Position numbers and translations under genes: made by a program. Positions 2,661-48,229 of a DNA stretch of 64,000 nt are shown in pieces. The notes under the pieces were generated by a model, which was not told the origin of the DNA, ran no database searches, and worked only from the letters and a program-made list of their open reading frames with translations. Each line of letters opens with the position of its first letter. The stretch's first letter is position 1. Origin of the DNA: Myxococcota bacterium (GTDB lineage Bacteria > Myxococcota > B64-G9); the NCBI GenBank assembly GCA_022710975.1, contig JAKLGA010000001.1:682001-746000 (forward strand), given 5' to 3'.

Positions 2661-5600
2661 ATGCACGGGCAGGACGCCCAGGACCCCGATCCCGAGCTGC
2701 GGAAATCCGCTGGGAATCCGCTCGGCTTCGGGCTCGAATTCAGGCGCGGAAGCACGCTCGTGACGCTCGGGGGGCGGACCCTCCCGGGCGGGCTCCGGGT
2801 GGAGCGCCTGGAGCTCGAGGTCCCCGAGGTCAGCTTCCCCTTCGACGTGAGCGGCGGGGCCGAGCAGTTCCGCCACCGCCGCTGCCGCCTGCGCCTGCTG
2901 GGAGTCTCGATCGGTCAGGCCGAGCTGGCTCCCTGGCTGGAGGCGGCGCTGGCCGAGGGCCAGCAGGGCGTCGCGGAGCTGCGCCTGGCGCTCGACGGCG
3001 GGGAGGGCTGGCTGGCCGGGAGCCTGTCCGCCGGGGCGCAGGCCGCGCCCTTCACCGCGCGCTTCGCCGCCGAGGGGATCGACGATCTCGGGCTGCGGGT
3101 CGGCTTCCACGACCTGCGCCTGTTCGGTCCGCTGCCGTTGCCGGCCTCCGCGTTGGTGGGACGCCTGGCCCGCGCGCTCGCCGGCTGGCGGGTGGAGCAG
3201 CCCTCGGCCGGCTGGCTGGTGTGCCACCCGGTGCGTGACCTGCTGCGCCGCCTGCTGCCGATGCACGGATGGAAGGTCCCCGATCTCAAGGGGTTGCGGC
3301 TGGACCGTGTGCGCCTGAGCCGCGGGCGGCTGGAGGTCTGGACCGCCCGCTACCCCGACGAGCTGCCCGGGGACGTGGAGCTGGAGGGAGAGCGCGCGGC
3401 CCGGCGGGCCTTCCTGCTCTTCCGCGAGGGGACGGAGCTGCACGCCACGGCCGAGGCTGCCCTGCGTGATGGGCGGCTGGCCGAGGCCCGCGCGGGCTAC
3501 CTCGGCCCGGGCCAGGTCGAGCCGGGCCACCCGCTGGCCGCCCGCCGGCTGCTCGAGATCGGCCAGGCCGAGGAGCAGCGGGCGGAGGCGGTCGAGGACC
3601 TGGTGCGCGATCGCCTGACCCGCCAGCCCGAGGACGTGCACACCTGGCTGGCCAGGGCCGCGCTGCTCGAGCGGCGCGGCGCCCTGGCCGAGGCCGGCCG
3701 GAGCCACGAGCGCGTGGCCGAGCTGTGCGAGGCGCTGGGGCAGAACCGCGATGCGGCCCTCGCCCGGGGCCGGGCCGGAGCGCTGCTCAGCGGCCCCGAT
3801 CGCCCGCGGGCGGTGGAGAATCTGGAGCGCCGCCTGGTGCTCGAGCCCGAGCACCGGCCGACCCTGCTCGGGCTGGCGGAGCTCTACGGGCTGGAGGGCC
3901 AGTGGTACCGGGCCCTGCGGGTGCTGCTGCGCCTGGCCCGAGGGGAGGAGAGCCCGCAGGCGGCCGCGGCCCACCACGCCCGCATGGGCGCCATCTACCT
4001 CGAGCGGCTCGAGGACCTCGAGCAGGCCCGGCGCCACCTGGACGTGGCCCTGGCCTCCGACCCGGGCAACCTGGACGCGCTGACCGCCATGGCCGAGGTC
4101 CAGCAGCGCCGCGGCCAGGCCGAGCGCGCCGCCCGGTTGCTGGGCGAGGTGCTCGAGCGGCTCGAGCCCGCCGACGATCAGGCCGCGCTCGAGCGGTCCC
4201 TGGACACGCGCCTGCGGTTGGCCCGCCTGTGGGAGGAGGCCCTCGACGACCGCGCCGCGGCGCTGGGCCACTACACCCACGTGCTGCGCCTGCGGCCCGA
4301 CCACCTCGAGTCGCTGTTCCGCGCCGGCCGGCTGGCCCTGGAGCTCGGCCAGCTCGACCAGGCCGACGACCTGTGGAGCCGGCTGCTGGAGGCCGAGGCG
4401 GCCGGGCAGGCCCTGACGCCCGACGTGCTGCGGGCCACCTGCCTGGGGCTGGGCCGCATCCACGCCAGCCGGCCCGACGGGGCACGCGAGGCCCGGCGCC
4501 ACCTGGCCCGGGCGGTGCGCCAGGACCCGCGCGATCTCGAGGCCTGGGAGGCGCTGGAGGCGATCGACCGGCAGCGGCAGGCCTGGGCCGAGCTGGTCGA
4601 GGATCTCGAGGCCCTGGCCGTGCTGCGCCAGGCCCCGCCCGCGGCCCAGGCCGCCCTGCGCGAGGCCGCCCTGGTGTGTGAGCACTCCCTCAAGGACCCG
4701 GGCCGCGCCGAGGGCTTCTACCGGCGCGCGCTCGAGGGAGTGCCCGGGGACCAGGTGGCCCTGGACGGCCTGACCGCGCTGCTGGAGAAGGGCCGCCGCT
4801 ACGCCGAGCTGGACGCGCTGTGGCAGTCCACGATCCGCGCCGACATGAGCTCGGCCGAGGCGGCCACCCGCTGGGCCCGCGTGGGTGAGCTGCGCATCGA
4901 GCACCTCGGCGACCTGGCGGGCGGGCTGCAGGCCCTCGAGCTGGCGTTCCGGCTGGACCGCGGCAACCGCAAGGTGGTGGAGCGGTTGCTGGAGCTCTAC
5001 CGGAAACACGGTCGCCGGGCGGAGCTCGTGGAATTGATCGGCCGCATCGACCCGAGCGCCTTCGAGGTGGCGGCCCGGGTGGATCTGTGGCTGGAGCAGG
5101 CGCGCCTGCTGGCCGAGCAGCCGGGGCAGGCCGAGCGCGCCATCGCGGCCTACCGCCGTGCGCTGGAGGACGATCCCGAGCTGCTGGAGGCGCACCGGGC
5201 GCTGGCGGACCTGTACGCCGAGACCGAGGACTGGGCCCAGGCGCGGGTGGCCATCCAGCGAGTGCTGGACCTGGCCGGGGAGGGCGGGCTGTCCGGGCCG
5301 GGGCTGACCGACCTGCACCGCCGCCTGGCCGCGGCCGAGCAGGCGCTCGGCGACCACGAGGCGGCCATCAACCACCTGAAGGTGGTGCTAGGGCGCTTCC
5401 CGGAGGACGAGGACGCCGCGGATCGCATGGCCCAGCTCCTGCGGGCAGAGGCCCGCTGGGAGGAGCTGGCCGAGCTGTACGCCGGCCGCGCGGCGCGGGC
5501 GAGCGGAGAGCAGGCCGCGGCGCTGCACACGGCGGCGGCCTCGATCTGGTGGGAGAAGCTGCGCCGCCTGGAGGCGGCCGGTGACGAGTTCGAGCGGGCG

Positions 5601-8600
5601 GTGCAGGCCTCGCCCGACAGCGAGGCCGCGCCGGCCAGGCTGGCCTCCCTGCAGCGCCTGGCGGCCGAGCAGGGCCAGTGGGATCGCGTGGCCGAGGTGC
5701 TGCGCCGGCGCATCGCGCGGGCACCGGCCTCCGAGGTGGCGCCGCTGTGCATGGCGCTCGCCTCGGTGCTCGAGGCGCAGCTCGCCGATCCGGCCGCGGC
5801 GGCGGCCTGCTGGCAGCAGGCCCTGGAGGCCGAGCCCTCGCACCTGCCGGCCCTGCTGCGGCTGGCCGAGCGCCGCGCCCAGGAGGAGCGCCACGCCGAG
5901 GCGATGGCCCTGGTCCGGCAGGCGCTGGCCGCTCCGGAGGGCGCGCTGACCGCCGAGCAGCGCGGCGCCGTGGCGCTGGTGGGCGCGCGCGCGGCCTGGG
6001 CGCTGCGGCGAAGCACGGAGGCCACCGAGCTCTACCAGGCCCACCTGCAGGCCTTCGCCGGGCGCTCCTGCGCCGACGTGGACCCCGAGGCCTTCGAGCG
6101 GCTGGAGCTGCTGCTGCGCGAGGCGCGGCGCTTCGAGGAGCTGGCGCGGCTGTACCAGCAGTGGCTGCAGGCCGGCCAGCTGCCCGAGCGGCACGCGGGC
6201 GTCAGGCGCGCGCTCGCCCTGCTGCTGTACGAGCACCTCGAGCAGCCCGGGGAGGGGTTGGCGGTGCTGTCCGAGCACGTGCAGGCCCAGCCCGAGGATC
6301 AGCTCGCGGTCGGCGATCTGGCCCGCCTGCTCAGGCAGGCCAGCCGCTGGGCCAACCTGGCCGCGCTGTGGCGGGGGCAGTGGGAGCGCGCACCGCAGGA
6401 GGCCGAGCGGCTGAAGCGGCTCGAGGAGCTGGCCGAGCTGCTGCACCTGCGGCTGGACGACCCGGACGGCGCCGCGGACTGCTACCGGCGCCTGATCGCG
6501 CTGGGCCACCCGCCCGCCTGGGACCGGCTGGCCGGCCTGCTCAGGCGCGAGGGCCGCCACGCCGAGCTGGCCGAGCTGCTGGCCGAGCGCGCGGCGCGCG
6601 AGAGCCCGGCCGAGGCGGCTCCGCTGTGGGCCGAGCTGGGTCACCTGGCCCGGGGACCGCTGCAGGACCGGGCCCGGGCGCTCGAGGCCTTCGGGCGCGC
6701 CCACGCCGCCCGCCCGGACCGCGAGGTGCGCCAGGCCATGCTGGCTGTCCTGGCGGAGCTGGGGCTGGACGCGCGCCGGCTGCAGTTCCTGGAGGCCGCC
6801 GCGACCGACGAGCCCGACCCGGAGGAGCGCAGGCGCCTGTGGCTGGAGCTGGCGGAGGGCTGCCTGGCGGGCGAACCCGGGCGCGAGGCCCGGGCGCGGG
6901 CCCTGGGCGCGCTCCGCCAGGCGCTGGAGCTCGAGCCCGAGGCCGAGACGGCCGCGCGGGCGCTGGCCCTGGCCGAGCGGGATGGCGACGAGCAGGCCGC
7001 CAGCGAGCTGCTGGGCGTGCTGGTCGATCTGGCCGGGGACGGAGAGGACTCGGCCCGGCAGCTCATGCGCCTGGGCCGGCTGTACGCGCGCCGCGAGGAG
7101 GGGCACACGCGCGCGGCGGCCGCCTTCGCCGAGGCCGCCCGGCGGGCCCCGGCCTGGCTGGAGCCGGCCGAGGCGCTGGTGGAGGCGCTGGAGCGCGGCG
7201 GGGATCCAGCCGGCGCCGCGGACGGCATGCAGGCGGTCCTGGAGCGTTGCCCGCCCGAGCAGCGCGCCGAGGGGCTGCGACGGCTGGCGACCCTGCGCGC
7301 GCAGGCTGGCCAGCCCGAGGCCGCCATCGCGGCCCTGGGCCAGCTGGTCGAGCTGGCGCCCGGCGACCTGGCTGGCCGCGTGGAGCTCGAGCGGCTGCTC
7401 GGGCTGGCGGGGCGACACGCCGAGCTGGCCGCCTCGATCGAATCCGGGCTGGCCCAGCCGGGCGGCGCACCCGAGCCCGGCCGCTGGTTGCAGGCGGCCG
7501 TGGGATGGTGGCGGGCGGATCGGCCGGAGCAGGCTCGCGCGGCCCTGGACAAGGCGCTGCTGCAGGCGCCCTCGGGCGGGGAGGCGATCGCCTGGCTGGA
7601 GAGGCTGGCCGCTGAGCACCCGGACTGGCCGGCGGTCTGGTCCCGCCTGGCGAGCCTGGCCGCGGAGATCCACCGGCCCGATCGTGAGGCCGAGGCCCTG
7701 CGGCGCCTGGCCGAGGTGGTGCAGGCGGGCGAGCGCCTGCAGGCGCTGCGGCGCGTGGCCCGCCTGTCCTGGGAGGGATTGAACTCGTCGCTGGGGCGCG
7801 CCGTGGGCGCCTGGGGTGGCGCGGTGCCCACCGCCGTGCGGCCCACGGTGCAGCGGCTGCGGACCGATCTGGAGCGCCTGCTGGCCTGCGCGCCGGACGA
7901 CCCGGAGGGGCTCGACCAGCTGATCGCCCTCGATCGCCTGGAGCACCGCCACGAGTCGCTGGCGGAGCTCCTGGCCAGGCGCGCGCTGTCCGCCGAGAAC
8001 ACGGTGCGCCTGGCCGCGCTGCTGCGCGAGCGGGCCGAGCTGCTCATGGTCCAGCTCGACCGGGAGCCCGAGGCCCTGCCCGTGCTCGAGCGGCTGGCGG
8101 GGCTGCTGCCGGCCGAGCGCGGCACCTGGCGGGCCCTGGTCCGCCTGTACCGGGGCGCGGAGCGCCCGTCGCAGGCCGCCGGGGCCCTGCAGCACCTGGT
8201 GGCCCTGGGAGGCACGGCGGAGGAGCAGGCCCGCCTGTGGTCGGAGCTGGGCGAGCTGCGGCTCGGCCAGCTCGGCGACGAGCGCGGGGCGGCGGACGCC
8301 TTCCGCGAGGCCGCGCGCCTGGCGCCCGCGGCCCCCGAGCCGCTGCATCGCCTGCGCGAGCTGGCGGTGAGGCTGGACGACCTGCCCCTGCTGGCCGAGG
8401 CGCTGGAGAGCCTGGCGAACCTGGGCTCCAGGCCGGCCGAGCAGGCCGAGTTCCACCGTTCGGCGGGCTTGCTCCACTGGCGCCTCGGACAGCCCCAGGA
8501 GGCGCGCCGGAACTTCGAGCGGCTGCTGGTCCTGGACGCCGAGGATCTGACCGCCCACCGCTTCCTGGCCCGGCTGCTGGTCGAGACCGAGCCGCTGCAG

Positions 8601-11600
8601 GCCCTGCACCACCTGGACTGGCTGGAGCGGCGGGCCGAGCTGCTCCTGCCCTCGGACGCCAGCCGGGTGAAGGCCGAGCTGGCCCACGCGCTGGAGATCC
8701 GCCTGGCGCAGGACCCGGCCGACCGCGCCGCCCTCGAGCGACTCGAGCCCCTGCTGATCGGGCGACCGCCGGCCGAGCGCGGGGCCTTCTACCTGCGCTG
8801 GGCCGAGGGGCCGGCCGCCGGCGCCGAGCGTCCGGCGCTGGTGGCCAAGGCAGCCGCAGCGCTCGAGGAGGGCGGTGATCGGGCCGGCGCCGAGGAAGCC
8901 TGGCGGCGCTTGTTCCTGGCCGCGCCCGAGCTGGACGAGGCCTTCCAGCGCCTGAGCGAGGGCCTGCGGGCCCGGCAGGCCTGGGAGGCGCTGCTCGAGG
9001 TCCTTGAGCGGCGACGGCGGGTCGTCACCCGGACCGAGGAGCGCGCCGAGCTGGCCTTCGAGGTCGCCTCCCTGCTGGAGCGCCTGGGCCGGCCGGACGA
9101 GGCCGACGAGCCTTACGAGGCCTGCCTGGAGCTGTGCCCCGATCACCTGCCGTGCCTGCGCGCCCTGGCGGACCTGCGCGAGCGCGAGGGGCGGGTGGAG
9201 GAGGCCGCGCGCTTGGTGGAGCGTATGCTGGAGCGCGCGCCGGTCGGGGAGCGGGCGGCCCTGGCGCTGAGAAGGGCGCACATGGGCGAGCGCCTGGGCG
9301 AGCTCGAGGCCCAGGTGCGCTTCTACCGCGAGGCCCTGCAGGCCGCGCCGGGGGACGTGAGCACGCGGGTCTCGCTGGTCCAGGCGCTCGAGGAGGCCGG
9401 CCAGCACGAGCAGGGCTGCGAGGCGCTCACCAGCCTGGCCGCGCTGGAGGGGCCCGTGGCTGCGCAGGCCCTGCAGGATCTGCGCGAGAGCCTGCGCGCC
9501 GACCGGCTGCGGGCGCACCTGCTGCTGCTGCTGGCCGAGCGCGGCAGCACCGCGGCCTCGCCGGAGCTGTGGCTCGAACGCGCGGATCTGCTCGAGCACG
9601 GCGGCCAGCTGCCCGAGGCGCTGGTCGCGCTGCAGCGGGCCCTGGCGGTGGAGGGCGCGCACCAGCCGGACTCGACGCTCCGGCTGGCGGGGCTGCAGCG
9701 GCGGCTGGGCCAGGCGCAGGAGGCGCGCCGCACGCTGGAAGACGCGCTCGGCGTGTGGCCGGACGCGCCCGCGATCCTGGAGGCGCTGTCCAGCTTGCTG
9801 GTAGAGCTGGGCCAGGAGGAGCGCGCCGTCGAGTTGCTGGAGCGGCTGGCGGCTGGCGCCCAGGGCTCCGAGGCGGTGGGCTGGTGGCTCAGGCTGGGCG
9901 AGCTGCGCCAGCGGCTCGGCACACCGGAGCTGGCCAGCGCAGCGCTGGAGCGCGCGCTGCAGCTCGATCCGGCCGCCGAGGCCGCCTACGCCGCCCTGGA
10001 GAGCCTGTGGCTGGCGCAGCCCGAGGACGGCGCCCGGGCGGCCGAGCGCGCCGCGCGCCTGGCGGCGCTGTACCAGGCCTGGGCCACTGGACCGGCCGGC
10101 GGTGAGGCCCGCGCGCACCGCCTGCGCCAGGCGGCCGAGCAGTTCTCAGCGGCGGGGCAGGCCGGGCAGGCCGCGGAGGCGCTGCGCCTGTCGCTGCGCT
10201 TCGACCCCAGCGGCACCGAGTCTCACCGGCTGCTGGCCCCCCTGTTGCGGGCGCAGGCGGCCTGGGAGGAGCTGGCCGGGTTGCTCGGGGAGTGGTTCGT
10301 CCGGGAGCCCGGCCAGGAGCGCCGGGCGGCGCTGGCCTACGAGCTCGGGCGGCTGTCGGCGGAGCGGCTGGGCGATCCCGGCGCCGCGGCGGCCCACCTG
10401 GAGCGCTGCCTGCAGCTCGCGCCCGAGCACGCCGAGGCGCTGCTGCTGCTGGGCGACCTGCGCTTCGCCGACGAGCGCTGGCAGGAGGCCGAGGCCTTCT
10501 ACGCGCAGCTCGGCGAGCGGGCACCCGAGGCGCGGCGCCGCGATCTGGACATCCGCCGGGGACGCATCGCCGAGCGGCTGGGCGAGCTCGGGCAGGCCGC
10601 CGAGCGCTTCGCCCGGGCCGCCGCGCTGGGGGATGCGGACGGCTCCGCCCACCGCAGCCTGGTGCGGGTGCTGGCGGCCTCCGGGCGCGCCCAGGAGGCG
10701 CGCGACACGATCGATCGTCTGCTCGCGGGAGTCGCGGACGGAGAGGCGGTCGAGGCCGCCCTGTCGCAGCTCGAGCAGCAGGTGGAGGCGCCCGAGGTGC
10801 GCGTCCACCTGCTCGAGCGTATGGCGGAGCGGGCCGCCCCTGGGGAGCAGGTCGGGTTGTGGATGCAGCAGGCCGAGATCCTGCTGCGCATCGAGCGCCA
10901 GGCGGAGGCCGCCGCGCGCATGCAGCGGGCGCTCGCCTTGCCCGGGGAGCACCGCTTCGAGCTCGCCCTGCGGCTGGCGGAGCTGCAGCAGGAGGTGCTC
11001 AGGGACGGCGCCGGGGCCGCCGACAGCCTCGCCTTCGCCCTGGCCCACAGGCCCGCGGACACGACCGACGCCGACTGGGTCGGGTTGCTGCTGCACCTGG
11101 CGGACCTCCAGGAGGGGGCCGGGCGCTGGGCCGGCCTGGCGGAGACCCTGGAGCGGCTGTTGCCCGGCGTCGAGGCGGCCCGCCGGGCCGGGCTGGCCGC
11201 GCGCCTGGCCGCGGTGAGGGCGCGGTTGGGGCTGACGGCCGAGGCCGTGGCGGCGGCCGAGCAGGCCCTGGCGGACGATCCGGGCCTGAGCGCTTGCTGG
11301 AGCCTGCTGGTGGAGCTGCAGCGCGAGCGGTTGGCCCCAGCCGAGCTGCGCGAGCTGCTGCTGCGCTGGGCCCGCAGCCCGGGTGCGGGCGAGCGGCGCG
11401 CCGACCTGTGGCTGGAGATCGCCGAGCTCGCGCGGGCCGCGGGTGAGCCGCGCGCGCACCTGGAGGCCCTGCGCGGCGCGGTCGAGGCCGCGCCCGAGCG
11501 GCTCGAGGCCTGGCGGCGGCTGGCGGCCGCGCTGGCCGAGCAAGGCCCGGTGGACGCCTGGGCCCAGGCCCTGCAGAGGTGCTTCGAGCTCGAGCCGCAG

Positions 11601-14600
11601 CCTGTCGAGCGGGCCGAGCTGGCCTTCCAGCTGGGGCGCCTGGTCGAGGAGCGCCGCGCGGACGCCGCCGGCGCTGCCGAGCACTACGCCCGTTGCCTCG
11701 ATCTCGACCCGGAGCATCCGGGAGCCTTGCTGGCCCTGGCCCGCCACCACCTGCGGCTGGGAGGTGACGAGGAGGCCGAGCGGTTGCTGGTGCGCCTGGC
11801 GTCGCAGGGCGAGCCGCGCGCGGAGGTGTTGCTGCTGCGCGCGGAGGTCGCCGAGCGGCTGCAGCGCCCGGCCGAGGCCCTCGAGCACCTGCGGCGCGCC
11901 GCCGCGCTCTCGCCCGACGACCGACGGACGGCGCAGCGTCTGGCGGCCAGCCTGGCAGCGGCCGGTCGCGAGGCGGAGGCCCTGGCAGCCCTGGAGCGCC
12001 TGGTCGCGCTGCACGCCGGTCCGGACGGGACGCAGGCCCTGGCCGCGGTGTGGGCGGAGCTTGAGGGCGTGGCCGGCCCCGTGGCGTGGCGGGCCCGGGT
12101 GGCGCGGGAGCTCGTGCGCCTGGGCCCCGCGGCCGGGGCGGAGCCCGCCGGGCGCTGGCTGGAGCGGGCTGACAGGCTGCAGGCGGGCGGTGAGCCCGCC
12201 GCCGCCGCCGAGGCGCTCGCCCGGGCGGTGGAGCAGGAGGGCGCCCACCGCTTCGCGGCGCTGCGGCGCCTGGCCTCGTTGCAGCGCGAGGCGCTGGGCG
12301 ACGCGGCCGCGGCGGCACGTTCCCTCGAGCAGGCCCTGGCGCTCGAACCCGAGTCCCAGGAGGTGCTCCTGGAGCTGGCCGAGCTGGCCCTGTCCACGGG
12401 GCAGGCGGCCCAGGCCGCCACCTGGCTGGAGAGGCTGCTGGCCCGCGCTCCGCGCGGCGAGCGGGCCGCGGCGGCCCTGCGGCTCGGGGACGCGCGCCTG
12501 GCCCAGGGACGGCCGGATCTGGCGCGTGAGGCCTGGGAGCGGGTGCTGGCCGAGGAGCCGGCCCGCGAGGACGTGTGGCGGCGGCTGGAGGCGCTCTGGG
12601 AGGAGGACGATCCACCCGAGGCGCGCGCGGCCTTCTACCGCCGCTGGGCCCAGGCGGCCACCGAGCCCGCGCGACAGGCCGAGCTGCTGAAGCTGAGCGC
12701 CCGCGACTACGCGCTGGCCGGCAGGCTGGAGGACGTGCTGCGCGACCTGGAGGCGGCCCGCCGGGCGGTGCCCGAGGACGCCACCACCTGGGCCGCCATG
12801 TTGCCCTGGCTGGAGAAGGCCGGCCGGCACGCCGAGCAGGCCGAGCTGCTCGACTGCCTGGCGGAGCGGCAGGCGGACGCGGAGGCCCGCGCGCAGCAGT
12901 TGACCGCCTCGGCGCGGGTCCACCTGGAGCGCCTGGGCGACTCGGAGGCCGGGGCCAAGCGGCTGGCCCTGGCCCTCGAGGCGGTGCCCGAGCTCGGCGA
13001 GGCCCTGGAGCTGCTGGCCGACCTGCGCTGGGCCGAGGAGCGCTACGAGGAGGCCGGCCGGCTGTACGCCCGGCTCGGCGAGCGCGTCCGGGCGGAGCGG
13101 CTGGCGGAGGTGACCTTGCGCCGTGGGTTGATCGCGGCGCGCCTGGGCGATGCCCAGGAGGCGGCCCTGCTCCTCGGACAGGCGGTGCGGCACGCACCGG
13201 AGGCCGGGCCGTGGGCGCAGCAGGCCGCGGTGGGCTGGATCCGGGCGCTGGATCGACTCGCGCGCGTGGAGGAGGCCATCGCCGCCCTGGACCAGACGCT
13301 CCTCCCGCGGCTGGAGGCCGGGCAGGCCCCGGCGTTGCTCCACGCGCTGGTCGAGCAGCTCTCGGCGCCCGCGCTGCGCGCCCACGTCCTGCTGCGGCTG
13401 GCCGAGGCGGATCCCGGTGCCGGCGCGCAGGTGTGGGTCGCGCGGGCCGAACTGCTGGATGGCCTGGAGCGGCCCGCCGAGGCGGCCGAGGCGTTGCAGC
13501 ACGCGCTGGCGCTGCCGGGCGCCCACCGCCACGAGGTCGCGCTGCGCCTGGCGTCCCTGCGGCGCGCGCTGGGAGACCAGGCGGGGGCCGCCGCCTCCCT
13601 GGAGGCCGCGCTGGCAGAGCGTCCCGAGGACCACGCGCTGCGCCTCGAGTGGGTCGGCCTGCTCGAGCAGCTGGGCAGGCACGCGCAGGTGGCCGAGATC
13701 CTGCCCGGGCTGCTGGAGCACTCCGAGGCGGGCGCCCGCGGCGGGCTCCTGCTGCGCCTGGCGGCGGCGCAGCGCTCGCTGGGCCAGGACGCGCAGGCCC
13801 GCGAGGCCCTGGAGCAGGCGCTGGCGCTGGTCCCGGACTCGGTCGAGGGCCACGAGCACCTGGCCGAGGCGCTGGAGCGGGCGGGAGACCGGCGGGCCCT
13901 GGTCGAGCTGCTGGAGCGCTGGGCCGCCGCCCCAGCGGGCCGCGGGCTCGAGGCCGACCTCCTGCGACGGGCCGCCGGGCAGCGCCTGGCCCTGGACGAG
14001 CTGGACGCGGCCGCCCGGCTGGCCGAGCGCGCCGCCGAGCTGGTGCCCGGGGCCCTGGAGACCTTTGCGCTGCTGGCGGACATCCGCCGCCGGGAACAGC
14101 GCTGGGAGGACCTGCTCACGGTGCTCGGCCAGTGGCGCGCGCGGGTGCAGGATGACTCCACCCGGGCCCGCCTGGCGTGCGAGATGGGCCAGCTGGCCCA
14201 GGAGCAGCTCGCCAACCCGGGTGCGGCCGCGGCGCACTTCACCGCCTGCCTGGGCTTCGAGCCGCAGAACCTGGCGGCCCTGGCCGGCCTGGCCGCCATC
14301 CGGTTGGACCAGCGCCGGGAGGTCGAGGCCGGGGAGCTGCTCGCGCGCCTGGCCGAGGCCGCCCAGGGCGCGCAGCGCGCCGGCGCCCTGCTCCAGCAGG
14401 CCGGGTTGCTGGCGCGCCAGGGCGAGCTGGCCGGGGCGGCCCCCCTGACCGAGGCGGCCGTGGCCGCGGCCCCGGGCCTGGCCGCGGCGCACCGCGAGCT
14501 GGTGCTGCTGCGCGCGCGCGCGGGTGAGCCCGAGGCCGCCCTGGCGGCCCTGCAGCAGCTCCTGGGCCAGGCCGAGCCCGAGGAGGCCGCGCTGGAGGCG

Positions 14601-17600
14601 CTCGAGTCGCTGGCCGGGTCCCTGCCGGCCGGGACGGTCCGCGACCGGAGCCTGGCGGAGCTGGCCGGGCGGGCACCCGAGCGGCTGGCGCCGGCGAGCT
14701 GGGCCCTGCACGCCGAGGGTCTGGAGCGAGCCGGCGCGCTGGCCGAGGCCGGCGCGGCCTGGCGGCGTGCCCTGGCCCAGGACGGCGCCGCCCGTCTGCA
14801 CGCGGCCCGCCGGCTGGCGGAGCTCGCCCGCGGCGCGCTGCGCGAGCCCGCCGCGGCCATCGAGGCCCTGGAGATCGTGCGGGCCGAGGCGCCCGGCGAT
14901 CTGGGAGCGCTGGAGGCGCTGGCCGAGCTGTACGAGCAGGCGGCCCAGTGGCGCCAGGCGGAGGAGGTGCTGGCGAGCTGGCTGGAGCGGGCGCCGGAGT
15001 CCGCCCGCGCCAGCGTGGCCCTGCGGCTCGGCGACGTGCGCGGCCGGCGCCAGTCCCGCGAGTCGAGCCTGGCGGCCTACGAGCGCGCCCTGGAGAGCGA
15101 TCCCGGCAACCTGGAGGCGTTCACCCGCATGGAGGTCCTGCTGCGGGACGGCAGCAGCGCCGCCGAGCTGGCGGACTTCTACCTGCGCTGGGCCCGTGGT
15201 CCCGCCGCCGGTCCGCGGCAGGCCGAGCTCTTCTGCCGCGCCGCGGAGCTGCTCCAGGACGCGTGGGACGAGCCCGGCGCGGTGGCGGCGCTGCAGGAGG
15301 CGCTGCGCCTCGAGCCGCAGCGCCGGGAGGCCCACGGCCGCCTGGCCGAGCTGCTGCGCAAGCAGCAACGCTACGAGGAGCTCGAGGCCGAGCTGGCCGC
15401 CTGGATGGCCGCGGAGACCGATCCGGCGCGCCAGGCGGAGCTGGCCTTCGACCGCGCCGTGCTGGCCGAGGCGCAGCCCGAGAAGCTCGGGGGGACCGCG
15501 CGCGCGGCGGAGCTGCTGCGCGCCTGCCTGGCGCGGACCCCCGAGCACCTGGGCGCGCTGGCGCGGCTGGCCGAGCTCGAGCTGGCGGAGGGCCGGCTGG
15601 CAGAGGCCGACGGCCTGCTGCGCCGGCTGGGCAACCGCACGCCCGCGGAGCGTGGGGGCGAGCTGGCGCTGGTGCGCGCCCGGGTGGCCGAGGGGCTCGG
15701 GCGACCCGAGGAGGCCCTGGAGGCCTACCGCGCGGCCCTGGCCGATCAGATCGAGGAGCCCGGGGCCCACCGCGGTCTGGTGCGCAGCCTGGCGCGCCTC
15801 GGCCGGCTGGAGCAAGCGCGCGCGGCGCTTGACGCCATGCTGTCCACGCTGGCCGATCACGTCGCCCTGGAGGACTGGCTGGAGGAGCTGCAGCGGGAGC
15901 TGGCCCCGCTCGACGCCCGGGTGGCCGCGCACCTGGCCTCGCTGCGGGGCGCGCGGGCCGAGGCTCGCGGCGAGCTGGAGGGGGCGCGGCGCTTGTACCT
16001 GGCCGCCCTGGAGCTGGATGCGTCCTGCGGCCAGGCGCTCGGCGCGCTCGAGGGGCTGGCCGACAAGGGCGTCGCGCCAGGGATGGACGCCCGGGCCCGC
16101 GCGGCGCTGCTCTGGCGTCAGGCCGAGCAGGAGCCCGTGATCCCGCGCCGCGTGGAGCGCCTGGTCCAGGCCGCCCGGGCCCTGGCCGCGGCGGGTGATG
16201 AGGCCGGCGCCGGCGGGGCCTGGTGGGCCGCGCTGAGGCTGGACGGCGCCCAGGCCGAGGCCCTGGCCGCGCTGCCGCCCTTGCTGCGGCGGCTGGGGCG
16301 CCAGGAGGAGCTGCTCGAGGCCCTCGGCCTGGCCCGCGAGGCCGCGGCCGACGACACCGCCCGCGCGGCGCTGAGCTTCGAGCTGGGTGTGGTCGCGCGG
16401 GGCGCGCCCGCCAAGCCCGGGGCGGAGCGGCTGGCCGCCGCCGCGGCCCTGGCCGCCGGCGGGCACGGGACCATCCCGGGTGGAGGTCGGGAGGCCGCCG
16501 CCGAGCACTTCGAGGAGTGCCTGCGCCTGGTGCCCGATCACCCCGGGGCGCTCGAGGCCCTGGCCGGCATCCGGCTGGAGCAGGAGCGCTGGCGCGACGC
16601 CGAGAAGCTGCTCGCGCGCCTGCTCGACCCCGCCCTGAGCGGTCGGCGCAGCGAGCCCTCGGCCCACGATCTCGCCCTGCGCCTGGCGAGCGTGCGTTTC
16701 GAGCACCTAGGCGACGAGGCCGGCGGCCTGCGCGCCTTGGAAGACGCGCTGAGGATCCGCCCCGACTCGCTCGAGGCCCTGCAGGCGCTGGGCGAGCGCT
16801 ACTGGGGCCAGGAGCGCTGGGAGGAGGCTGCGGAGGTGACCGCGCGGCTCCTGGAGCGCGCCCCGGCCGAGCAGCGCCCCGGGCTGGCCCTGCGGCTCGG
16901 CGACGTGCAGCTCAGGCTGGGGCAGGGCGAGGCCGCCCGGGCCTCGTTCGAGCGGGCCATCGAGCTGGACCCCGCCTACCGCCAGGCCTACGAGCGGCTC
17001 GAGCAGCTGCTGACGGCCTCTGGCAGCGCCCTCGAGCGCGGCCGCTTCTACCTGCGCTGGGCCCGCAGCCCGGCGGCCGGCACCAGCCGGGCACACCTGC
17101 TGCGGACCGCCTCCCGGCAGATGTCTCGCGGCGGAGAGGGCCCGGCGGCCATCGTCGCGCTGCAGGAGGCCCTCCAGCTCGAGCCCGGTGATCCTGCCTT
17201 GCTTGAGCCGCTGGCATTGCTCCTGGGCCAGGAACAACGCTGGCCCGAGCTGCTGGCGATCCTCGGCCTGTTGCGCTCCGTGACCCTGGAGCCCGAACGG
17301 CGCCGGGCCATGACGTTCGAGATGGGGCTGCTGTGCAAGGACCACATGGGCGACCTGGAGGGCGCTGCCAGCGCCTTCCGCGCCTGCCTGCAGGAGGACC
17401 CCGGGCACGCCGGGGCGCTGGAGGAGCTGGCGGAGATCCGTTACCAGCAGCGCGCCTGGGACGAGGCCGAGGAGCTGTACCAGCGGCTCCACGGCGGGGG
17501 CTCCGCCTCCAAGCGCTTCGTGGTGGCCTTCCGCCGTGGGGAGATGGCCGAGGCCCGGGGCGAGCTGGAGGTCGCGCTGGTCCACCTGCGCTCCTCGCTG

Positions 17601-19616
17601 GAGGCCAACCCCTCCTTCCTGAGCGCGCACCAGCGCCTGCTCGACCTGCTGGGGCGCCTGGGCCGGCACGCCGAGCTGCTGGAGTCCGCCCGCGCCCTGC
17701 TGGAGCGGGTCACCGAGGAGGGTTTCGAGGACCTGGTGGTGGAGGTCTGGCGGCGCATGGCGCGCGCCAACCGCTGCCTGCTGCACCTGGAGGCGTCCGC
17801 CGCGTGCTACCGCGAGGTGGTCGCCCGGGCGCCCGAGGACCTCGAGGCGATCTCGGCGCTGCGCGACTTCCACACCAACCGCATGCACTGGCGCAAGGCC
17901 GTGGAGTACGGCCAGCGCGTGCTGACGCTCCAGCCCGGAGCCGCCGACGCCGGCGCGCGCTGGCTGGAGCTGGGAGAGATCCTGAGGTCCAAGCTGGACG
18001 ATCTCGAGGGCGCGCAGCGCGCCTTCGAGGCGGCCCTGCGAGCCCAGCCGCCGCCCGAGGTGGCCCTGGACGCCGCCTGGAGGCTGTGGCAGGTGCTGCA
18101 CGGCCGGGGCGCGTGGGAGGCCATGTGCGGCCTGGGCCCCGCCCTGCTGCAGCACCCGCTCCCGGCCGAGCGGCGCCTGGAGGTGGGCCGCGGCCTGGGC
18201 GCCGCCTGGCTGGCCACCGGCCGCGATCCCCAGGTCGCGCTCGAGCACTACGGCGTCGCCCTGGCCACCGGCCTGGCCGGCCTGGATCTGGTGGACGAGG
18301 TCAGCAAGCTCGCCCGCGACCACGGCCGCTGGGCGCTGCACGCCTCCCTGGCGGGGCAAGCGCTGGAGGAGCGCCTGCGCCAGGGGCTGGATCCCGAGGT
18401 GGCCCTCGAGGGTTACCTGGAGCTGGCGCGTCTGTACCAGGAGCAGCTCCAGGACATCGGCCGCGCGGCCGCGGCCGTGCGGCGGGCCCTCGAGCTGCAC
18501 CCCCGGGATCCGGAGCTGCTGCGCCGCCTGGGCTACCTGTACGCCTCCGACTTCGAGACGCTCCAGGAGGCCGTGGACGTCTTCCGCGAGCTGCAGGGCC
18601 TGGACCCCACGGACGCCGACTGCTATCGCCTGCTGGCCCGCCTGGAGGCGGCCCGCGGCGACATGGATCGGGCCACCTGCTACTACGGCGGGCTGAAGTT
18701 CCTGCAGCCCATGGATCAGGAGGTGCGGCGCTACATGGGCTACGCCGGGGCGAGCGCGCGCCCGAGCCGGGCCCTCACCCGGGCCGAGTGGGACGAGATC
18801 CTGCACCCCTCGGCGGACTGCCTGCTCCAGCGGGTGTTCGCGGCCCTGGCGCCCTACCTCGAGCGGCTGTTCCCGCCCAACCTGGGCCGCTTCACCGCGG
18901 ATCCGCAGCGGCCGACGCCCGAGCTGCAGGAGGCGCTGGAGACGGCCCGCACCGTGCTCGCGGCGCGGCCCTTCAACCTGCTGGTGGTGCGGGAGGGCGC
19001 CAGCCAGGCCTGGCTCGAGTGCGGCACGCGTCCCACCCTGATCCTGTCGCGCGCGGTGCTCGATCGCAGCTCGGCCGCCGAGCTGCAGTTCTTCGTGGCC
19101 CGCGAGGTGGCGCAGATCGCCATGGGCTGCGTGCTGCCGCGGCGATTCAGCCGCGCCGATCTCGTGCAGCTGCTGGCCATCCTGTGCCGCATGGTCTACC
19201 CGGAGTCGCCGTCGCCCGTGGCGCTGCCGCCCACCGCGCCGCAGTACATGGACGCCATCCGCAAGTCCACGCCCCCGGACGTGATGAGCCTGGTGGAGCC
19301 GCTGCTGCGGCAGTTCGCCCTCGAGCCCCGGGCCCACGACCTGGATCGGTGGCTGGGCGGGGTGCGCTGCAGCGCGGATCGGCTGGCCCTGCTCGCCTGC
19401 GGGGACCTCGGCGCGGCCATGGCGGTCATGGCGCGCGGGAGCCCGGCCGCCGGTGGCCGCGAGCTGGCCTTCGTGCCCAGCCGGGCGAGCCTGCTGCGCG
19501 ACGATCAGGACATCCTGGGGCTGTTCCGCTACTCCTTCAGCGAGACCTTCATGCGCCTGCGGCGGGAGCTGGGCGTGGCCATCCAGGGGCCCAAGCCCGG
19601 CGTCACAGCTGGATGA
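2661..19616 (+). CDS. Giant TPR-repeat protein (5,651 residues) with degenerate M48-like C-terminal region
   Basis: One uninterrupted frame of 16,956 bp. ATG 2661 is chosen because upstream sequence in the same frame is intergenic and overlaps the divergent promoters. Residues 1-250 are a beta-rich, non-TPR module. From about 254 to 5,350 the protein is a near-continuous array of 34-residue TPR motifs (e.g. AAAHLERCLQLAPEHAEALL), in the middle arranged as a 426-residue higher-order repeat. The last 300 residues change character: the segment LILSRAVLDRSSAAELQFFV AREVAQ resembles the M48 metallopeptidase core, but HExxH is replaced by REVAQ (residues 5481-5485), so catalysis is unlikely. There is no signal peptide or TM segment, so a large cytoplasmic scaffold is most plausible. 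Its 3' end overlaps the convergent response-regulator gene by 14 bp. Confidence 0.85.
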   Translation: MHGQDAQDPDPELRKSAGNPLGFGLEFRRGSTLVTLGGRTLPGGLRVERLELEVPEVSFPFDVSGGAEQFRHRRCRLRLLGVSIGQAELAPWLEAALAEGQQGVAELRLALDGGEGWLAGSLSAGAQAAPFTARFAAEGIDDLGLRVGFHDLRLFGPLPLPASALVGRLARALAGWRVEQPSAGWLVCHPVRDLLRRLLPMHGWKVPDLKGLRLDRVRLSRGRLEVWTARYPDELPGDVELEGERAARRAFLLFREGTELHATAEAALRDGRLAEARAGYLGPGQVEPGHPLAARRLLEIGQAEEQRAEAVEDLVRDRLTRQPEDVHTWLARAALLERRGALAEAGRSHERVAELCEALGQNRDAALARGRAGALLSGPDRPRAVENLERRLVLEPEHRPTLLGLAELYGLEGQWYRALRVLLRLARGEESPQAAAAHHARMGAIYLERLEDLEQARRHLDVALASDPGNLDALTAMAEVQQRRGQAERAARLLGEVLERLEPADDQAALERSLDTRLRLARLWEEALDDRAAALGHYTHVLRLRPDHLESLFRAGRLALELGQLDQADDLWSRLLEAEAAGQALTPDVLRATCLGLGRIHASRPDGAREARRHLARAVRQDPRDLEAWEALEAIDRQRQAWAELVEDLEALAVLRQAPPAAQAALREAALVCEHSLKDPGRAEGFYRRALEGVPGDQVALDGLTALLEKGRRYAELDALWQSTIRADMSSAEAATRWARVGELRIEHLGDLAGGLQALELAFRLDRGNRKVVERLLELYRKHGRRAELVELIGRIDPSAFEVAARVDLWLEQARLLAEQPGQAERAIAAYRRALEDDPELLEAHRALADLYAETEDWAQARVAIQRVLDLAGEGGLSGPGLTDLHRRLAAAEQALGDHEAAINHLKVVLGRFPEDEDAADRMAQLLRAEARWEELAELYAGRAARASGEQAAALHTAAASIWWEKLRRLEAAGDEFERAVQASPDSEAAPARLASLQRLAAEQGQWDRVAEVLRRRIARAPASEVAPLCMALASVLEAQLADPAAAAACWQQALEAEPSHLPALLRLAERRAQEERHAEAMALVRQALAAPEGALTAEQRGAVALVGARAAWALRRSTEATELYQAHLQAFAGRSCADVDPEAFERLELLLREARRFEELARLYQQWLQAGQLPERHAGVRRALALLLYEHLEQPGEGLAVLSEHVQAQPEDQLAVGDLARLLRQASRWANLAALWRGQWERAPQEAERLKRLEELAELLHLRLDDPDGAADCYRRLIALGHPPAWDRLAGLLRREGRHAELAELLAERAARESPAEAAPLWAELGHLARGPLQDRARALEAFGRAHAARPDREVRQAMLAVLAELGLDARRLQFLEAAATDEPDPEERRRLWLELAEGCLAGEPGREARARALGALRQALELEPEAETAARALALAERDGDEQAASELLGVLVDLAGDGEDSARQLMRLGRLYARREEGHTRAAAAFAEAARRAPAWLEPAEALVEALERGGDPAGAADGMQAVLERCPPEQRAEGLRRLATLRAQAGQPEAAIAALGQLVELAPGDLAGRVELERLLGLAGRHAELAASIESGLAQPGGAPEPGRWLQAAVGWWRADRPEQARAALDKALLQAPSGGEAIAWLERLAAEHPDWPAVWSRLASLAAEIHRPDREAEALRRLAEVVQAGERLQALRRVARLSWEGLNSSLGRAVGAWGGAVPTAVRPTVQRLRTDLERLLACAPDDPEGLDQLIALDRLEHRHESLAELLARRALSAENTVRLAALLRERAELLMVQLDREPEALPVLERLAGLLPAERGTWRALVRLYRGAERPSQAAGALQHLVALGGTAEEQARLWSELGELRLGQLGDERGAADAFREAARLAPAAPEPLHRLRELAVRLDDLPLLAEALESLANLGSRPAEQAEFHRSAGLLHWRLGQPQEARRNFERLLVLDAEDLTAHRFLARLLVETEPLQALHHLDWLERRAELLLPSDASRVKAELAHALEIRLAQDPADRAALERLEPLLIGRPPAERGAFYLRWAEGPAAGAERPALVAKAAAALEEGGDRAGAEEAWRRLFLAAPELDEAFQRLSEGLRARQAWEALLEVLERRRRVVTRTEERAELAFEVASLLERLGRPDEADEPYEACLELCPDHLPCLRALADLREREGRVEEAARLVERMLERAPVGERAALALRRAHMGERLGELEAQVRFYREALQAAPGDVSTRVSLVQALEEAGQHEQGCEALTSLAALEGPVAAQALQDLRESLRADRLRAHLLLLLAERGSTAASPELWLERADLLEHGGQLPEALVALQRALAVEGAHQPDSTLRLAGLQRRLGQAQEARRTLEDALGVWPDAPAILEALSSLLVELGQEERAVELLERLAAGAQGSEAVGWWLRLGELRQRLGTPELASAALERALQLDPAAEAAYAALESLWLAQPEDGARAAERAARLAALYQAWATGPAGGEARAHRLRQAAEQFSAAGQAGQAAEALRLSLRFDPSGTESHRLLAPLLRAQAAWEELAGLLGEWFVREPGQERRAALAYELGRLSAERLGDPGAAAAHLERCLQLAPEHAEALLLLGDLRFADERWQEAEAFYAQLGERAPEARRRDLDIRRGRIAERLGELGQAAERFARAAALGDADGSAHRSLVRVLAASGRAQEARDTIDRLLAGVADGEAVEAALSQLEQQVEAPEVRVHLLERMAERAAPGEQVGLWMQQAEILLRIERQAEAAARMQRALALPGEHRFELALRLAELQQEVLRDGAGAADSLAFALAHRPADTTDADWVGLLLHLADLQEGAGRWAGLAETLERLLPGVEAARRAGLAARLAAVRARLGLTAEAVAAAEQALADDPGLSACWSLLVELQRERLAPAELRELLLRWARSPGAGERRADLWLEIAELARAAGEPRAHLEALRGAVEAAPERLEAWRRLAAALAEQGPVDAWAQALQRCFELEPQPVERAELAFQLGRLVEERRADAAGAAEHYARCLDLDPEHPGALLALARHHLRLGGDEEAERLLVRLASQGEPRAEVLLLRAEVAERLQRPAEALEHLRRAAALSPDDRRTAQRLAASLAAAGREAEALAALERLVALHAGPDGTQALAAVWAELEGVAGPVAWRARVARELVRLGPAAGAEPAGRWLERADRLQAGGEPAAAAEALARAVEQEGAHRFAALRRLASLQREALGDAAAAARSLEQALALEPESQEVLLELAELALSTGQAAQAATWLERLLARAPRGERAAAALRLGDARLAQGRPDLAREAWERVLAEEPAREDVWRRLEALWEEDDPPEARAAFYRRWAQAATEPARQAELLKLSARDYALAGRLEDVLRDLEAARRAVPEDATTWAAMLPWLEKAGRHAEQAELLDCLAERQADAEARAQQLTASARVHLERLGDSEAGAKRLALALEAVPELGEALELLADLRWAEERYEEAGRLYARLGERVRAERLAEVTLRRGLIAARLGDAQEAALLLGQAVRHAPEAGPWAQQAAVGWIRALDRLARVEEAIAALDQTLLPRLEAGQAPALLHALVEQLSAPALRAHVLLRLAEADPGAGAQVWVARAELLDGLERPAEAAEALQHALALPGAHRHEVALRLASLRRALGDQAGAAASLEAALAERPEDHALRLEWVGLLEQLGRHAQVAEILPGLLEHSEAGARGGLLLRLAAAQRSLGQDAQAREALEQALALVPDSVEGHEHLAEALERAGDRRALVELLERWAAAPAGRGLEADLLRRAAGQRLALDELDAAARLAERAAELVPGALETFALLADIRRREQRWEDLLTVLGQWRARVQDDSTRARLACEMGQLAQEQLANPGAAAAHFTACLGFEPQNLAALAGLAAIRLDQRREVEAGELLARLAEAAQGAQRAGALLQQAGLLARQGELAGAAPLTEAAVAAAPGLAAAHRELVLLRARAGEPEAALAALQQLLGQAEPEEAALEALESLAGSLPAGTVRDRSLAELAGRAPERLAPASWALHAEGLERAGALAEAGAAWRRALAQDGAARLHAARRLAELARGALREPAAAIEALEIVRAEAPGDLGALEALAELYEQAAQWRQAEEVLASWLERAPESARASVALRLGDVRGRRQSRESSLAAYERALESDPGNLEAFTRMEVLLRDGSSAAELADFYLRWARGPAAGPRQAELFCRAAELLQDAWDEPGAVAALQEALRLEPQRREAHGRLAELLRKQQRYEELEAELAAWMAAETDPARQAELAFDRAVLAEAQPEKLGGTARAAELLRACLARTPEHLGALARLAELELAEGRLAEADGLLRRLGNRTPAERGGELALVRARVAEGLGRPEEALEAYRAALADQIEEPGAHRGLVRSLARLGRLEQARAALDAMLSTLADHVALEDWLEELQRELAPLDARVAAHLASLRGARAEARGELEGARRLYLAALELDASCGQALGALEGLADKGVAPGMDARARAALLWRQAEQEPVIPRRVERLVQAARALAAAGDEAGAGGAWWAALRLDGAQAEALAALPPLLRRLGRQEELLEALGLAREAAADDTARAALSFELGVVARGAPAKPGAERLAAAAALAAGGHGTIPGGGREAAAEHFEECLRLVPDHPGALEALAGIRLEQERWRDAEKLLARLLDPALSGRRSEPSAHDLALRLASVRFEHLGDEAGGLRALEDALRIRPDSLEALQALGERYWGQERWEEAAEVTARLLERAPAEQRPGLALRLGDVQLRLGQGEAARASFERAIELDPAYRQAYERLEQLLTASGSALERGRFYLRWARSPAAGTSRAHLLRTASRQMSRGGEGPAAIVALQEALQLEPGDPALLEPLALLLGQEQRWPELLAILGLLRSVTLEPERRRAMTFEMGLLCKDHMGDLEGAASAFRACLQEDPGHAGALEELAEIRYQQRAWDEAEELYQRLHGGGSASKRFVVAFRRGEMAEARGELEVALVHLRSSLEANPSFLSAHQRLLDLLGRLGRHAELLESARALLERVTEEGFEDLVVEVWRRMARANRCLLHLEASAACYREVVARAPEDLEAISALRDFHTNRMHWRKAVEYGQRVLTLQPGAADAGARWLELGEILRSKLDDLEGAQRAFEAALRAQPPPEVALDAAWRLWQVLHGRGAWEAMCGLGPALLQHPLPAERRLEVGRGLGAAWLATGRDPQVALEHYGVALATGLAGLDLVDEVSKLARDHGRWALHASLAGQALEERLRQGLDPEVALEGYLELARLYQEQLQDIGRAAAAVRRALELHPRDPELLRRLGYLYASDFETLQEAVDVFRELQGLDPTDADCYRLLARLEAARGDMDRATCYYGGLKFLQPMDQEVRRYMGYAGASARPSRALTRAEWDEILHPSADCLLQRVFAALAPYLERLFPPNLGRFTADPQRPTPELQEALETARTVLAARPFNLLVVREGASQAWLECGTRPTLILSRAVLDRSSAAELQFFVAREVAQIAMGCVLPRRFSRADLVQLLAILCRMVYPESPSPVALPPTAPQYMDAIRKSTPPDVMSLVEPLLRQFALEPRAHDLDRWLGGVRCSADRLALLACGDLGAAMAVMARGSPAAGGRELAFVPSRASLLRDDQDILGLFRYSFSETFMRLRRELGVAIQGPKPGVTAG
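9051..17310 (+). repeat. Higher-order repeat inside the giant TPR gene: 426-residue unit
   Basis: A recurring block of the type [EA]LAFELGRL...GAAAHYxRCLxLxPEH...ALLxLAxxR begins at 9051, 10332, 11619, 12900, 14172, 15441, 16371 and 17310. The first six intervals average exactly 1,278 bp (426 residues, about 12.5 TPR motifs); the last two shrink to 930-939 bp. A second register mark, FYLRWARxPAAG, sits near 8799, 10080, 11367, 12645, 13920, 15189 and 17058. A third, W-x-x-RAELL...EGAHR, sits near 9567, 10855, 12156, 13434 and 14700. All three give the same period, so this is segmental duplication above the level of single TPRs. Confidence 0.8.
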
Positions 19617-20253
19617 GGCCCTTGCGGAGCGCGATCACCACGGCCTCGGCCCGGCTGGTGGTGCCCAGCTTCTGGTAGATGTGGCCCAGGTGCGTGCGCA
19701 CCGTGCGGCGCTCGAGCTGCAGCACCTTGCCGGCCTCCTGGTTGGTCAACCCGCGGGCGATCATGGTCAGGATGTCGCGCTCCAGCTCCTCCAGGAGCTG
19801 GAGCGCCCCCTGGGGCTTGCCCTGGACGCTCTGGAAGTAGTTCCAGAAGCGGCGGGCCAGGCGCGGCTCGATGACCGTGCCGCCGGCCAGCACGTCCAGG
19901 ATCGCCTGGCGCAGGCGGGGCGGCGCCAGGCTCTTGACCAGGTAACCGCTGGCCCCGGCCTGGATGGCCTTGTACACCTTCACCTCGTCCTCGAACGAGG
20001 TGAGGATCAGCACCTCGGTCTGCGGGCGGGCCGCCTTGACGCGCGCGGTGACCTCGATGCCGTCGATGTCCGGCAGCTCGAGGTCCAGCAGCGCCAGGTG
20101 GGGCTGGAGCGCCGTGATGGCCTCCACGCCCGCCTCGCCCGACAGGGCGTTGCCCACCACCCGGAACTCCTCGAAGGCGCTGAGCAGCCGCAGCAGGTTC
20201 TTCATCGTCTTGGGGTCGTCCTCGACGACCACCAGCTCGATGGGCTCGCTCAC
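19603..20253 (-). CDS. NarL/FixJ-type response regulator (REC + LuxR HTH)
   Basis: The protein has 216 residues. The receiver domain (1-125) keeps the acidic pair E11/D12, phosphoacceptor D57 (LALLDLELPD), T85 and K107, so it should be phosphorylatable. A short linker leads to a LuxR-type helix-turn-helix at about 150-216 (LTNQEAGKVLQLERRTVRTHLGHIY). It is predicted to be a DNA-binding transcriptional regulator in the cytoplasm. Its start overlaps the stop of the upstream pseudokinase gene by 4 bp (ATGA), which suggests the two products act together. No histidine kinase lies nearby. Its 3' end overlaps the convergent giant TPR gene by 14 bp. Confidence 0.9.
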   Translation of the reverse strand: MSEPIELVVVEDDPKTMKNLLRLLSAFEEFRVVGNALSGEAGVEAITALQPHLALLDLELPDIDGIEVTARVKAARPQTEVLILTSFEDEVKVYKAIQAGASGYLVKSLAPPRLRQAILDVLAGGTVIEPRLARRFWNYFQSVQGKPQGALQLLEELERDILTMIARGLTNQEAGKVLQLERRTVRTHLGHIYQKLGTTSRAEAVVIALRKGLIQL

Positions 20254-22052
20254 GGGGGCCTCTTGGTGACGCGCAGCTTCTGCGTCCTCTTGCGCGACGG
20301 CTTCTTCTTGGGCGGGGGCGGCTTCGGCGCGGGCGGCGCGGGGCGCGCCTCGAGGAGCCCGGCGTCGGCCGCCGGGGCCCCGGCGTGCAGCTCCCGGGTG
20401 CCTCCGATCGTCACCTCGACCTGCTCATCGAAGAGCTTCTGGCCGTTCGGAAGCGTCAGCACCACCCGGTGCATGCCGGCCCGCAGCAACTTCTTCACCA
20501 GCGGGGTCGTGCCCGGCAGCAGCTCTCCGTCCAGGGTGATCTGGGCGGGCACGTCCGAGTCGATGCTCAGGAAGCCGATGGGCGAGGAGGGCCCGCTGGG
20601 CGGGCCCAGGGCTGGCTCCTCGGGGACCGAACCGAACCCGAAGTAGAGCACCAGCGCCACCACCAGGGCCAGCAGCCCGCCCGCGAGCAGGACCGTGGGC
20701 TTGCTCCAGGCCGGCCTGGCCCCGGCGGCCTTCAGCTCCCGCGTGTCGTGCTTGGGAGGCGTGACCTCGGCCGGCGGCGCGGGCTCGTCCACCGACACCA
20801 CGGGCATGACCTGGGTGTCCCGGACGGGCGCGTCCTCCTCGTCGGTGCCCTCGCCCTGCGCGAAACCCCGATCGAGCGGCTGGGTCGAGGTGGCCGGCGG
20901 GGCCGGGCTCCCGGCGGCCGGCTGCGCGAGCGGGACCGGGGGGGCCTCGAACTCCGCGGACCAGGCCCGGGCCGGTGCGGCCTGGGTGGCCCTGGACGGC
21001 AGCGGCGGCGGGGCGGGTGGCGGCGCCGCGGGCTGCGCGGGCGAGGCGGGCTGGGTCGGCTCCTCCGGCAGGCTGGCCAGGGACGGCAGCCGCGCCCCGA
21101 CCGCAGGGCCGGCCAGCGGGATCGGCTCGCCCTTGGCCGGGCGCTCCAGCGTGCCCGGCATCCCGGCCACCACGGCCTCGTTGGGGAACAGGCTGCGGAC
21201 GAACTCGATCACCCCGGCCTGGCCCTCGTCCGGGCCCTCGCTCATGGCCCGGCGGAGCTGCGCCACGGCGCGCTGCAGGGCGGCGCCGTTCTCGTGGCGG
21301 CTGTGGGGCGCGGTCCCCAGCGCCTTGACGAACACGGCGTCGCACGAGAACGGCAGGCTGCGGTCCAGCTTGGAGGGCGGCTGGATGGCCTGGTGGCGGG
21401 TGGAGACGCTGCCGCCGTCCCCCGCGCCCAGCGGCGGTTGGCCGGTGAGCAACCTGTACAGGATGGCCGCGGCCGAGAACACGTCGGCCTGGGTGCTGCC
21501 ACCCCGACCGTTGATCACCTCGGGCGGCAGGGTCTCCCGCCGGCCGCGGCGCGCCTTCTGCTTGAGCTCCTTGATGCCCATCAGCACCGACTCGTAGCCC
21601 ACGCCGTCCAGGCGGCTCAGCCCGTCCGCGCCCACCAGCACGTGGCGCGGATCGAGCCCGCCGTGGACCTGGCCAGCCTCGTGCAGCGCGGCCAGGCCGG
21701 CCAGGAAGTCCTCCCCGATCTTCAGGGTGCGCAGCGGCGAGATGTGCACCTCGCGGGACGAGAGGCGGTTCAGGGCGGTGGCCAGGTCGAAGCCCTCGAC
21801 GCGCTGGCTGATCCAGTAGTGGTCGCCGCCCGCCTCGACGAAGGCGACGTGGGGCAGGATGCACGGGTGCGCCAGGCCGGACACCGCCGCGGAGGCCGCG
21901 CGCAGCCCTTCCAGCACGCCGGGGGCGGACGCCACCGCGCGCAGCAGGCGGCGCACGGTCACCAGGCTGCGCCCGGAGTCGTCGAGCAGCCTGCCGACCC
22001 ACAGCTCGGCCAGGTTCTCGTCGGCCAGTTTCTCGATCAGCTCGAGCTGCAC
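20250..22052 (-). CDS. Ser/Thr kinase-like protein (probable pseudokinase) with TM segment and PEGA domain
   Basis: The protein has 600 residues with a GTG start. Residues 1-260 follow the bacterial Ser/Thr kinase fold, including the late segment TQADVFSAAAILYRLLTGQPP. Catalytic motifs are lost: the VAIK lysine position is R34, HRDLKPxN reads HGGLDPRH (130-137), and DFG reads DGV. A Pro/Ala-rich linker (about 300-440) leads to a TM helix (PTVLLAGGLLALVVALVLYF) and a PEGA-type C-terminal domain (GFLSIDSDVPAQITLDGELL) that would be periplasmic, where such domains are thought to bind surface components. A Lys/Arg/Pro-rich tail ends the protein. It likely signals allosterically; the overlapping response regulator is the obvious partner. 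Confidence 0.85.
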   Translation of the reverse strand: MQLELIEKLADENLAELWVGRLLDDSGRSLVTVRRLLRAVASAPGVLEGLRAASAAVSGLAHPCILPHVAFVEAGGDHYWISQRVEGFDLATALNRLSSREVHISPLRTLKIGEDFLAGLAALHEAGQVHGGLDPRHVLVGADGLSRLDGVGYESVLMGIKELKQKARRGRRETLPPEVINGRGGSTQADVFSAAAILYRLLTGQPPLGAGDGGSVSTRHQAIQPPSKLDRSLPFSCDAVFVKALGTAPHSRHENGAALQRAVAQLRRAMSEGPDEGQAGVIEFVRSLFPNEAVVAGMPGTLERPAKGEPIPLAGPAVGARLPSLASLPEEPTQPASPAQPAAPPPAPPPLPSRATQAAPARAWSAEFEAPPVPLAQPAAGSPAPPATSTQPLDRGFAQGEGTDEEDAPVRDTQVMPVVSVDEPAPPAEVTPPKHDTRELKAAGARPAWSKPTVLLAGGLLALVVALVLYFGFGSVPEEPALGPPSGPSSPIGFLSIDSDVPAQITLDGELLPGTTPLVKKLLRAGMHRVVLTLPNGQKLFDEQVEVTIGGTRELHAGAPAADAGLLEARPAPPAPKPPPPKKKPSRKRTQKLRVTKRPP

Positions 22053-22073
22053 ACCGCCTCCAGCCCCCGGGGC

Positions 22074-22400: not shown

Positions 22401-22499
22401 CTCGGTCGTTCCTCGGCCGCCAGAATCCCACAGATGGCGGGCCGACGCAAGCGTGCAGGCCGCCAGGGTATTTCTGGCGCGGCGGGCGTTTCGGGAATG

Positions 22500-22528: not shown

Positions 22529-22576
22529 GAGGCCGCGGACGAAGGACCCTGTCCAGGGTGGAGCGGTGGGACTCGC

Positions 22577-48203: not shown

Positions 48204-48229
48204 GGCCGTGCCCTCCTTCCGCCAGGGGT

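Follow-up and report, generated by a model that had tools for sequence, protein, structure and literature searches.

The gliding-motility protein GltI (AgmK, MXAN_4863) of M. xanthus is a giant TPR protein of 4,132 aa (PMC3169522). It has been described as a large scaffold inside the cell that joins the motor and the MreB track (PMC13104615). The corresponding glt genes of M. xanthus lie in two clusters (PMC3169522). Repeat regions are known to grow in their middle by several domains at a time, and the seven-domain units of nebulin are an example (PMC1553488).

The window analyzed here, a stretch of 64,000 nucleotides from a Myxococcota genome (GCA_022710975.1, contig JAKLGA010000001.1, positions 682,001 to 746,000 of the forward strand), contains the gene for a TPR protein of 5,651 aa. 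Its C-terminal domain occurs in four copies in this genome, one of which ends a 4,135-aa protein (G000:C9) flanked by GltC, GltE, CglF, GltG, CglE and GltJ and placed between CglE/GltG and GltJ; by this position and its length we identify the 4,135-aa protein as GltI. The 5,651-aa gene is not in the glt cluster beside GltG, GltH and GltJ, the place that the 4,135-aa gene occupies. Both are giant TPR proteins of the same genome, with homologous C-terminal M48-like domains that lack HExxH. They differ in N-terminal domain, in neighbors and in block length, which is 427 aa in the present protein and about 304-312 aa in the GltI of this family; GltI is about 4.1 kaa in most of the relatives examined and is encoded in the glt cluster. 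The sequence link between the two is through the C-terminal domain only, at 18-22% identity (single-sequence match to a GltI-type protein, E 1.5e-8), and the functional likeness may be loose.

The block period of the GltI-type protein (L039, also L044 and L045; further offsets at 615 and 925 aa) is shared across genera, whereas the 427-aa blocks are lineage-specific. GltC and probable partners (L061 6070-18419, with L062 254-2059) adjoin GltE, CglF, GltG, CglE, GltI and GltJ in one run.

The giant gene, its end domains and its neighbors

The gene (2661..19616, + strand) is a single open reading frame without internal stop. GC by codon position is of the coding type, and orthologue alignments begin near the same start. 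Pfam TPR models score above cut-off (TPR_19 with 166 bits over 18 stretches, also TPR_14, TPR_8 and others), the composition is 20% Ala and 17% Leu, and no TM-like stretch was found in the protein. An antisense open frame of 2,186 aa opposite the gene (10146-16706, - strand) is most likely a by-product of the very high GC.

The N-terminal alpha/beta domain (2697..3362, + strand), with the motif FPFDV[TSA]G, is conserved in Myxococcota (137 of 195 genomes), and its AlphaFold model has a pLDDT of 90. Pfam gave no match to it, nor did the PDB folds give a confident match to the model; lipid-binding-like folds (fibrillin, START, YceI, BPIFA1) appeared as low-probability matches only and were set aside. 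PDB sequence searches with the N- or the C-terminal domain gave no credible relative. Frames bearing the N-terminal domain are mostly about 3.2-3.5 kaa long, and the present one is the longest among those listed. Other long members took other routes, by 68-aa steps in G034 and by 73-aa (two-TPR) steps in G189, whose 4,893-aa member (L096) represents an independent path to length.

The last TPR helices and the C-terminal M48-like domain occupy 18621..19613 (+ strand). The domain was modeled at pLDDT 93, and its nearest solved folds by Foldseek are 3c37, BepA, Ste24, ZMPSTE24 and HtpX (M48/zincin; E 0.055, which does not pass 0.001, and probability 0.94). None of the 16 aligned members has the HExxH zinc site, and the domain is probably not a peptidase; its fold may be an inactive M48-like one. 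A profile built with GltI-like rows included detects it in 178 of 195 Myxococcota genomes; a genome usually has 2-4 copies, most of them in large TPR frames. A first scan of the genome contigs with the domain gave no match, unlike the profile search. The domain, which GltI shares, is apparently uncatalogued.

Upstream of the gene are the 3′ end of a TadA/CpaF-type (T2SSE) ATPase gene (1..444, +), a small protein with no Pfam match (453..929, +), an NADase_transloc (F5/8 type C)-like protein (985..1665, +) and a HicB-like protein (1672..2205, -). Downstream are a LuxR-type response regulator (19603..20253, -), a Ser/Thr kinase-domain protein (20250..22052, -) and an OmpA-family protein (22604..23935, +). 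This seven-neighbor synteny is kept within the family of this genome (f1); the other families examined did not show it. The conserved neighbors hint at a tie of the giant gene to an envelope or motor process. The downstream genes are inverted here: these three and a small frame (19603-23935) have orientation and order opposite to those in G005, G008 and G006, as if this 4.3-kb segment had been inverted as a whole beside the giant gene. Elsewhere in the window, a run of short genes at 48006-52746 (-) whose N-termini resemble Flp pilin and TadE-type proteins is possibly a Tad pilus cluster.

Blocks of about twelve TPRs

Whole-protein BLASTP of the protein against itself was unusable, and windows, diagonals and HMMs were used in its place. 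Self-comparison diagonals are enriched at 70-72, 142, 213 and 426 residues, which gives a base period of about 35.5 aa, and a block of 426-427 aa is therefore about 12 TPRs. A preliminary description of this DNA had proposed a period near 426 residues, with block marks at 9051, 10332, 11619, 12900, 14172, 15441, 16371 and 17310. These marks are exact. Each lies in the reading frame, and they correspond to residues 2131, 2558, 2987, 3414, 3838, 4261, 4571 and 4884; the distances between them are 427, 429, 427, 424, 423, 310 and 313 aa. Dominant self-comparison offsets are about 426, 855, 1280, 1706 and 2113 residues; others, at 623, 1471 and 2326, involve the two shortened blocks. Within residues 2131-4260, 80% of the strong 60-aa self-matches (1,210 of 1,513) fall near diagonals at multiples of 426. 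In 100 shufflings of the 71-aa (two-TPR) units the on-diagonal fraction fell from the observed 0.80 to 0.15 on average and never exceeded 0.47, and the pattern is not one of 34-residue diagonals alone.

A block profile (HMM) was built from blocks 1-4, with block 5 held out. Full-length matches to the profile are block 1 (9051..10331, 427 aa; matched at residues 2131-2557), block 2 (10332..11618, 429 aa; 2558-2986), block 3 (11619..12899, 427 aa; 2987-3412) and block 4 (12900..14171, 424 aa; 3414-3837), all in the model, and the held-out block 5 (14172..15440, 423 aa; 3838-4260), which scores 316 bits (E 5e-97). All blocks are on the + strand. The profile reaches at most 82 bits on the remaining TPR region of the same protein. 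Partial matches lie within residues 4261-4570, 4571-4883 and 4884-5013, and a tail is found at residues 2006-2130. This tail is partial block 0 (8676..9050), which covers profile positions 296-421 only and carries the motif WAEGPAAG. Block 6 (15441..16370, 310 aa) lacks its middle after profile position ~172, while block 7 (16371..17309, 313 aa) lacks profile positions ~72-206 and has an insert of ~22 G/A-rich residues near its start. The last two intervals are indeed shortened, and the data support the proposal that two blocks lost about 114 residues net, with differing parts missing in each. A terminal block head (17310..17720) follows, and was found in every family orthologue examined. Overall the protein has eight tails and eight heads, several of them trimmed.

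Copy number in relatives and origin of the blocks

The comparison set was eight other genera of family f1. Family orthologues with uncut genes are about 3.35-3.79 kaa long (3,345-3,385 aa for the two among them with one unit). The 3,385-aa orthologue of G005 runs collinear with the first 1,400 and the last 950 residues of the present protein, and nearly all windows of the latter from residue 2001 to about 4600 map onto one stretch of about 430 aa in it; the net insert is about 2,560 aa. One unit is present in each of G005, G002, G003, G008 and G001 and two in each of G007 and G006 (for G001 and G006, pieces on two contigs were joined). No other family orthologue has more than two (five genera with one, two with two), and the block was not found as a repeat outside family f1. 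Relatives that carry this unit once or twice independently show what had been proposed from this DNA alone, that blocks of about 12 TPRs were duplicated as units.

In the trees the last tail (BIG7) groups with the final unit of both G007 and G006, the terminal head (BIG8) joins every other terminal head (clade support 88/98), and the interior copies fall with the upstream unit in G007 and G006. Identities agree with the trees: the block 7 tail, which is the positional orthologue of the relatives' last full unit, is 54% identical to that of G007 (G007_1), and BIG8 is 49-50% identical to the terminal heads. Support in the copy trees is moderate throughout and full on one branch only, that of G007_1 with G006_0. 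Blocks 2 and 4 (BIG2, BIG4) are weakly paired, a hint of a two-block duplication step. By these comparisons both protein ends appear as positional orthologues and the interior as a lineage-specific, fast-diverging expansion, in which a stretch of about 12 TPRs was apparently copied whole some six or seven times.

Our preferred reading, to which we give a probability of about two in three, is that interior duplication of one ~12-TPR unit lengthened the arm of a soluble scaffold related to GltI. The family ancestor would have had a single unit of ~427 aa (~12 TPRs) close to the C-terminal end. Repeated duplication of this unit in the solenoid interior would, in this lineage, have added ~2,500 residues to the arm while both ends stayed conserved. 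The product would be a giant TPR scaffold, soluble and probably cytoplasmic, consisting of a small N-terminal domain, a superhelix and an inactive M48-like C-terminal domain. Scaffolding seems a reasonable role in view of the lack of a TM segment, the TPR superhelix and the relationship to GltI. Partners may bind at the conserved solenoid ends, with the dead protease fold serving as a binding cap, and the added blocks would set length or give weak extra contacts.

Protein identity between block copies is 31-42% (30% for the lowest pair, which includes a shortened block). DNA identity is 50-58% (~52%), and codon third positions show no greater likeness than other positions. These low identities indicate that the duplications are old, without sign of homogenization. 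A block phylogeny had been called for to separate serial duplication from conversion; recent gene conversion among the blocks is rejected, the copies being about equally divergent. Interior-copy branches are 0.9-1.4 changes/site against ~0.4-0.5 for BIG7, G007, G005 and G002, which suggests relaxed constraint; branches of G008, G006_0 and G001 are likewise long.

This divergence bears on the proposal in the preliminary description that the blocks are repeated docking sites, which would multiply the binding of one partner. We consider that reading unlikely. The overall fold of each block should recur, and WA..PAAG, the most distinctive once-per-block motif, is kept in orthologues and in five of the eight copies here. 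However, the interior copies are unlike strongly conserved identical sites, their branches being about twice those of the end copies or of several single-unit orthologues. Because the interior blocks are less conserved and WA..PAAG is clear in five of eight tails only, a length or spacer role appears to fit better than identical docking sites.

Much less probable again is that many blocks are ancestral and were lost by the relatives. Loss does happen, as two trimmed blocks and a partial one attest, but parsimony over the copy numbers in the seven other genera counted above makes an ancestor with many blocks improbable, as do the absence of a block repeat outside the family and the usual length of N-domain proteins, among which this one is the longest listed. 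Finally, mere TPR consensus with biased composition, or an assembly artefact, might be suspected as the source of the periodicity in a sequence of such high GC and low complexity, and is refuted by the held-out profile match (316 bits, with no score above 82 in the rest of the TPR region), the shuffling, the one-to-many mapping to orthologues and the DNA divergence, copies so different in DNA not being open to misassembly from one another.

Implications and known systems

Duplication of one unit within a GltI-related scaffold, if correct, gives a clean natural series for the growth of very long solenoids, in orthologues with 1, 2 and 8 copies of one 12-TPR unit. It also ties a giant TPR protein to GltI via a common pseudopeptidase domain, and makes the GltI C-terminal domain a concrete target for learning what such scaffolds hold. 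More tentatively, GltI and its relatives might form a phylum-wide class of giant scaffolds in Myxococcota, each a TPR superhelix with a dead M48-fold cap; at least some would tune their reach by 12-TPR block duplication, and the solenoid would be an evolvable spacer or ruler with a conserved domain at each end.

Among solved folds, the M48 peptidases (BepA, HtpX, Ste24, Q74D82) come closest to the C-terminal domain, and BepA likewise combines M48 and TPR; the difference is the HExxH motif, missing from every member aligned here. As in other domain repeats expanded block by block, self-similarity is enriched at a multiple of the single repeat and the copies come from one unit. Compared with expansion of the nebulin type, the present case is bacterial, its unit is about 12 TPRs, and copy numbers of 1, 2 and 8 are found among the orthologues of one family.
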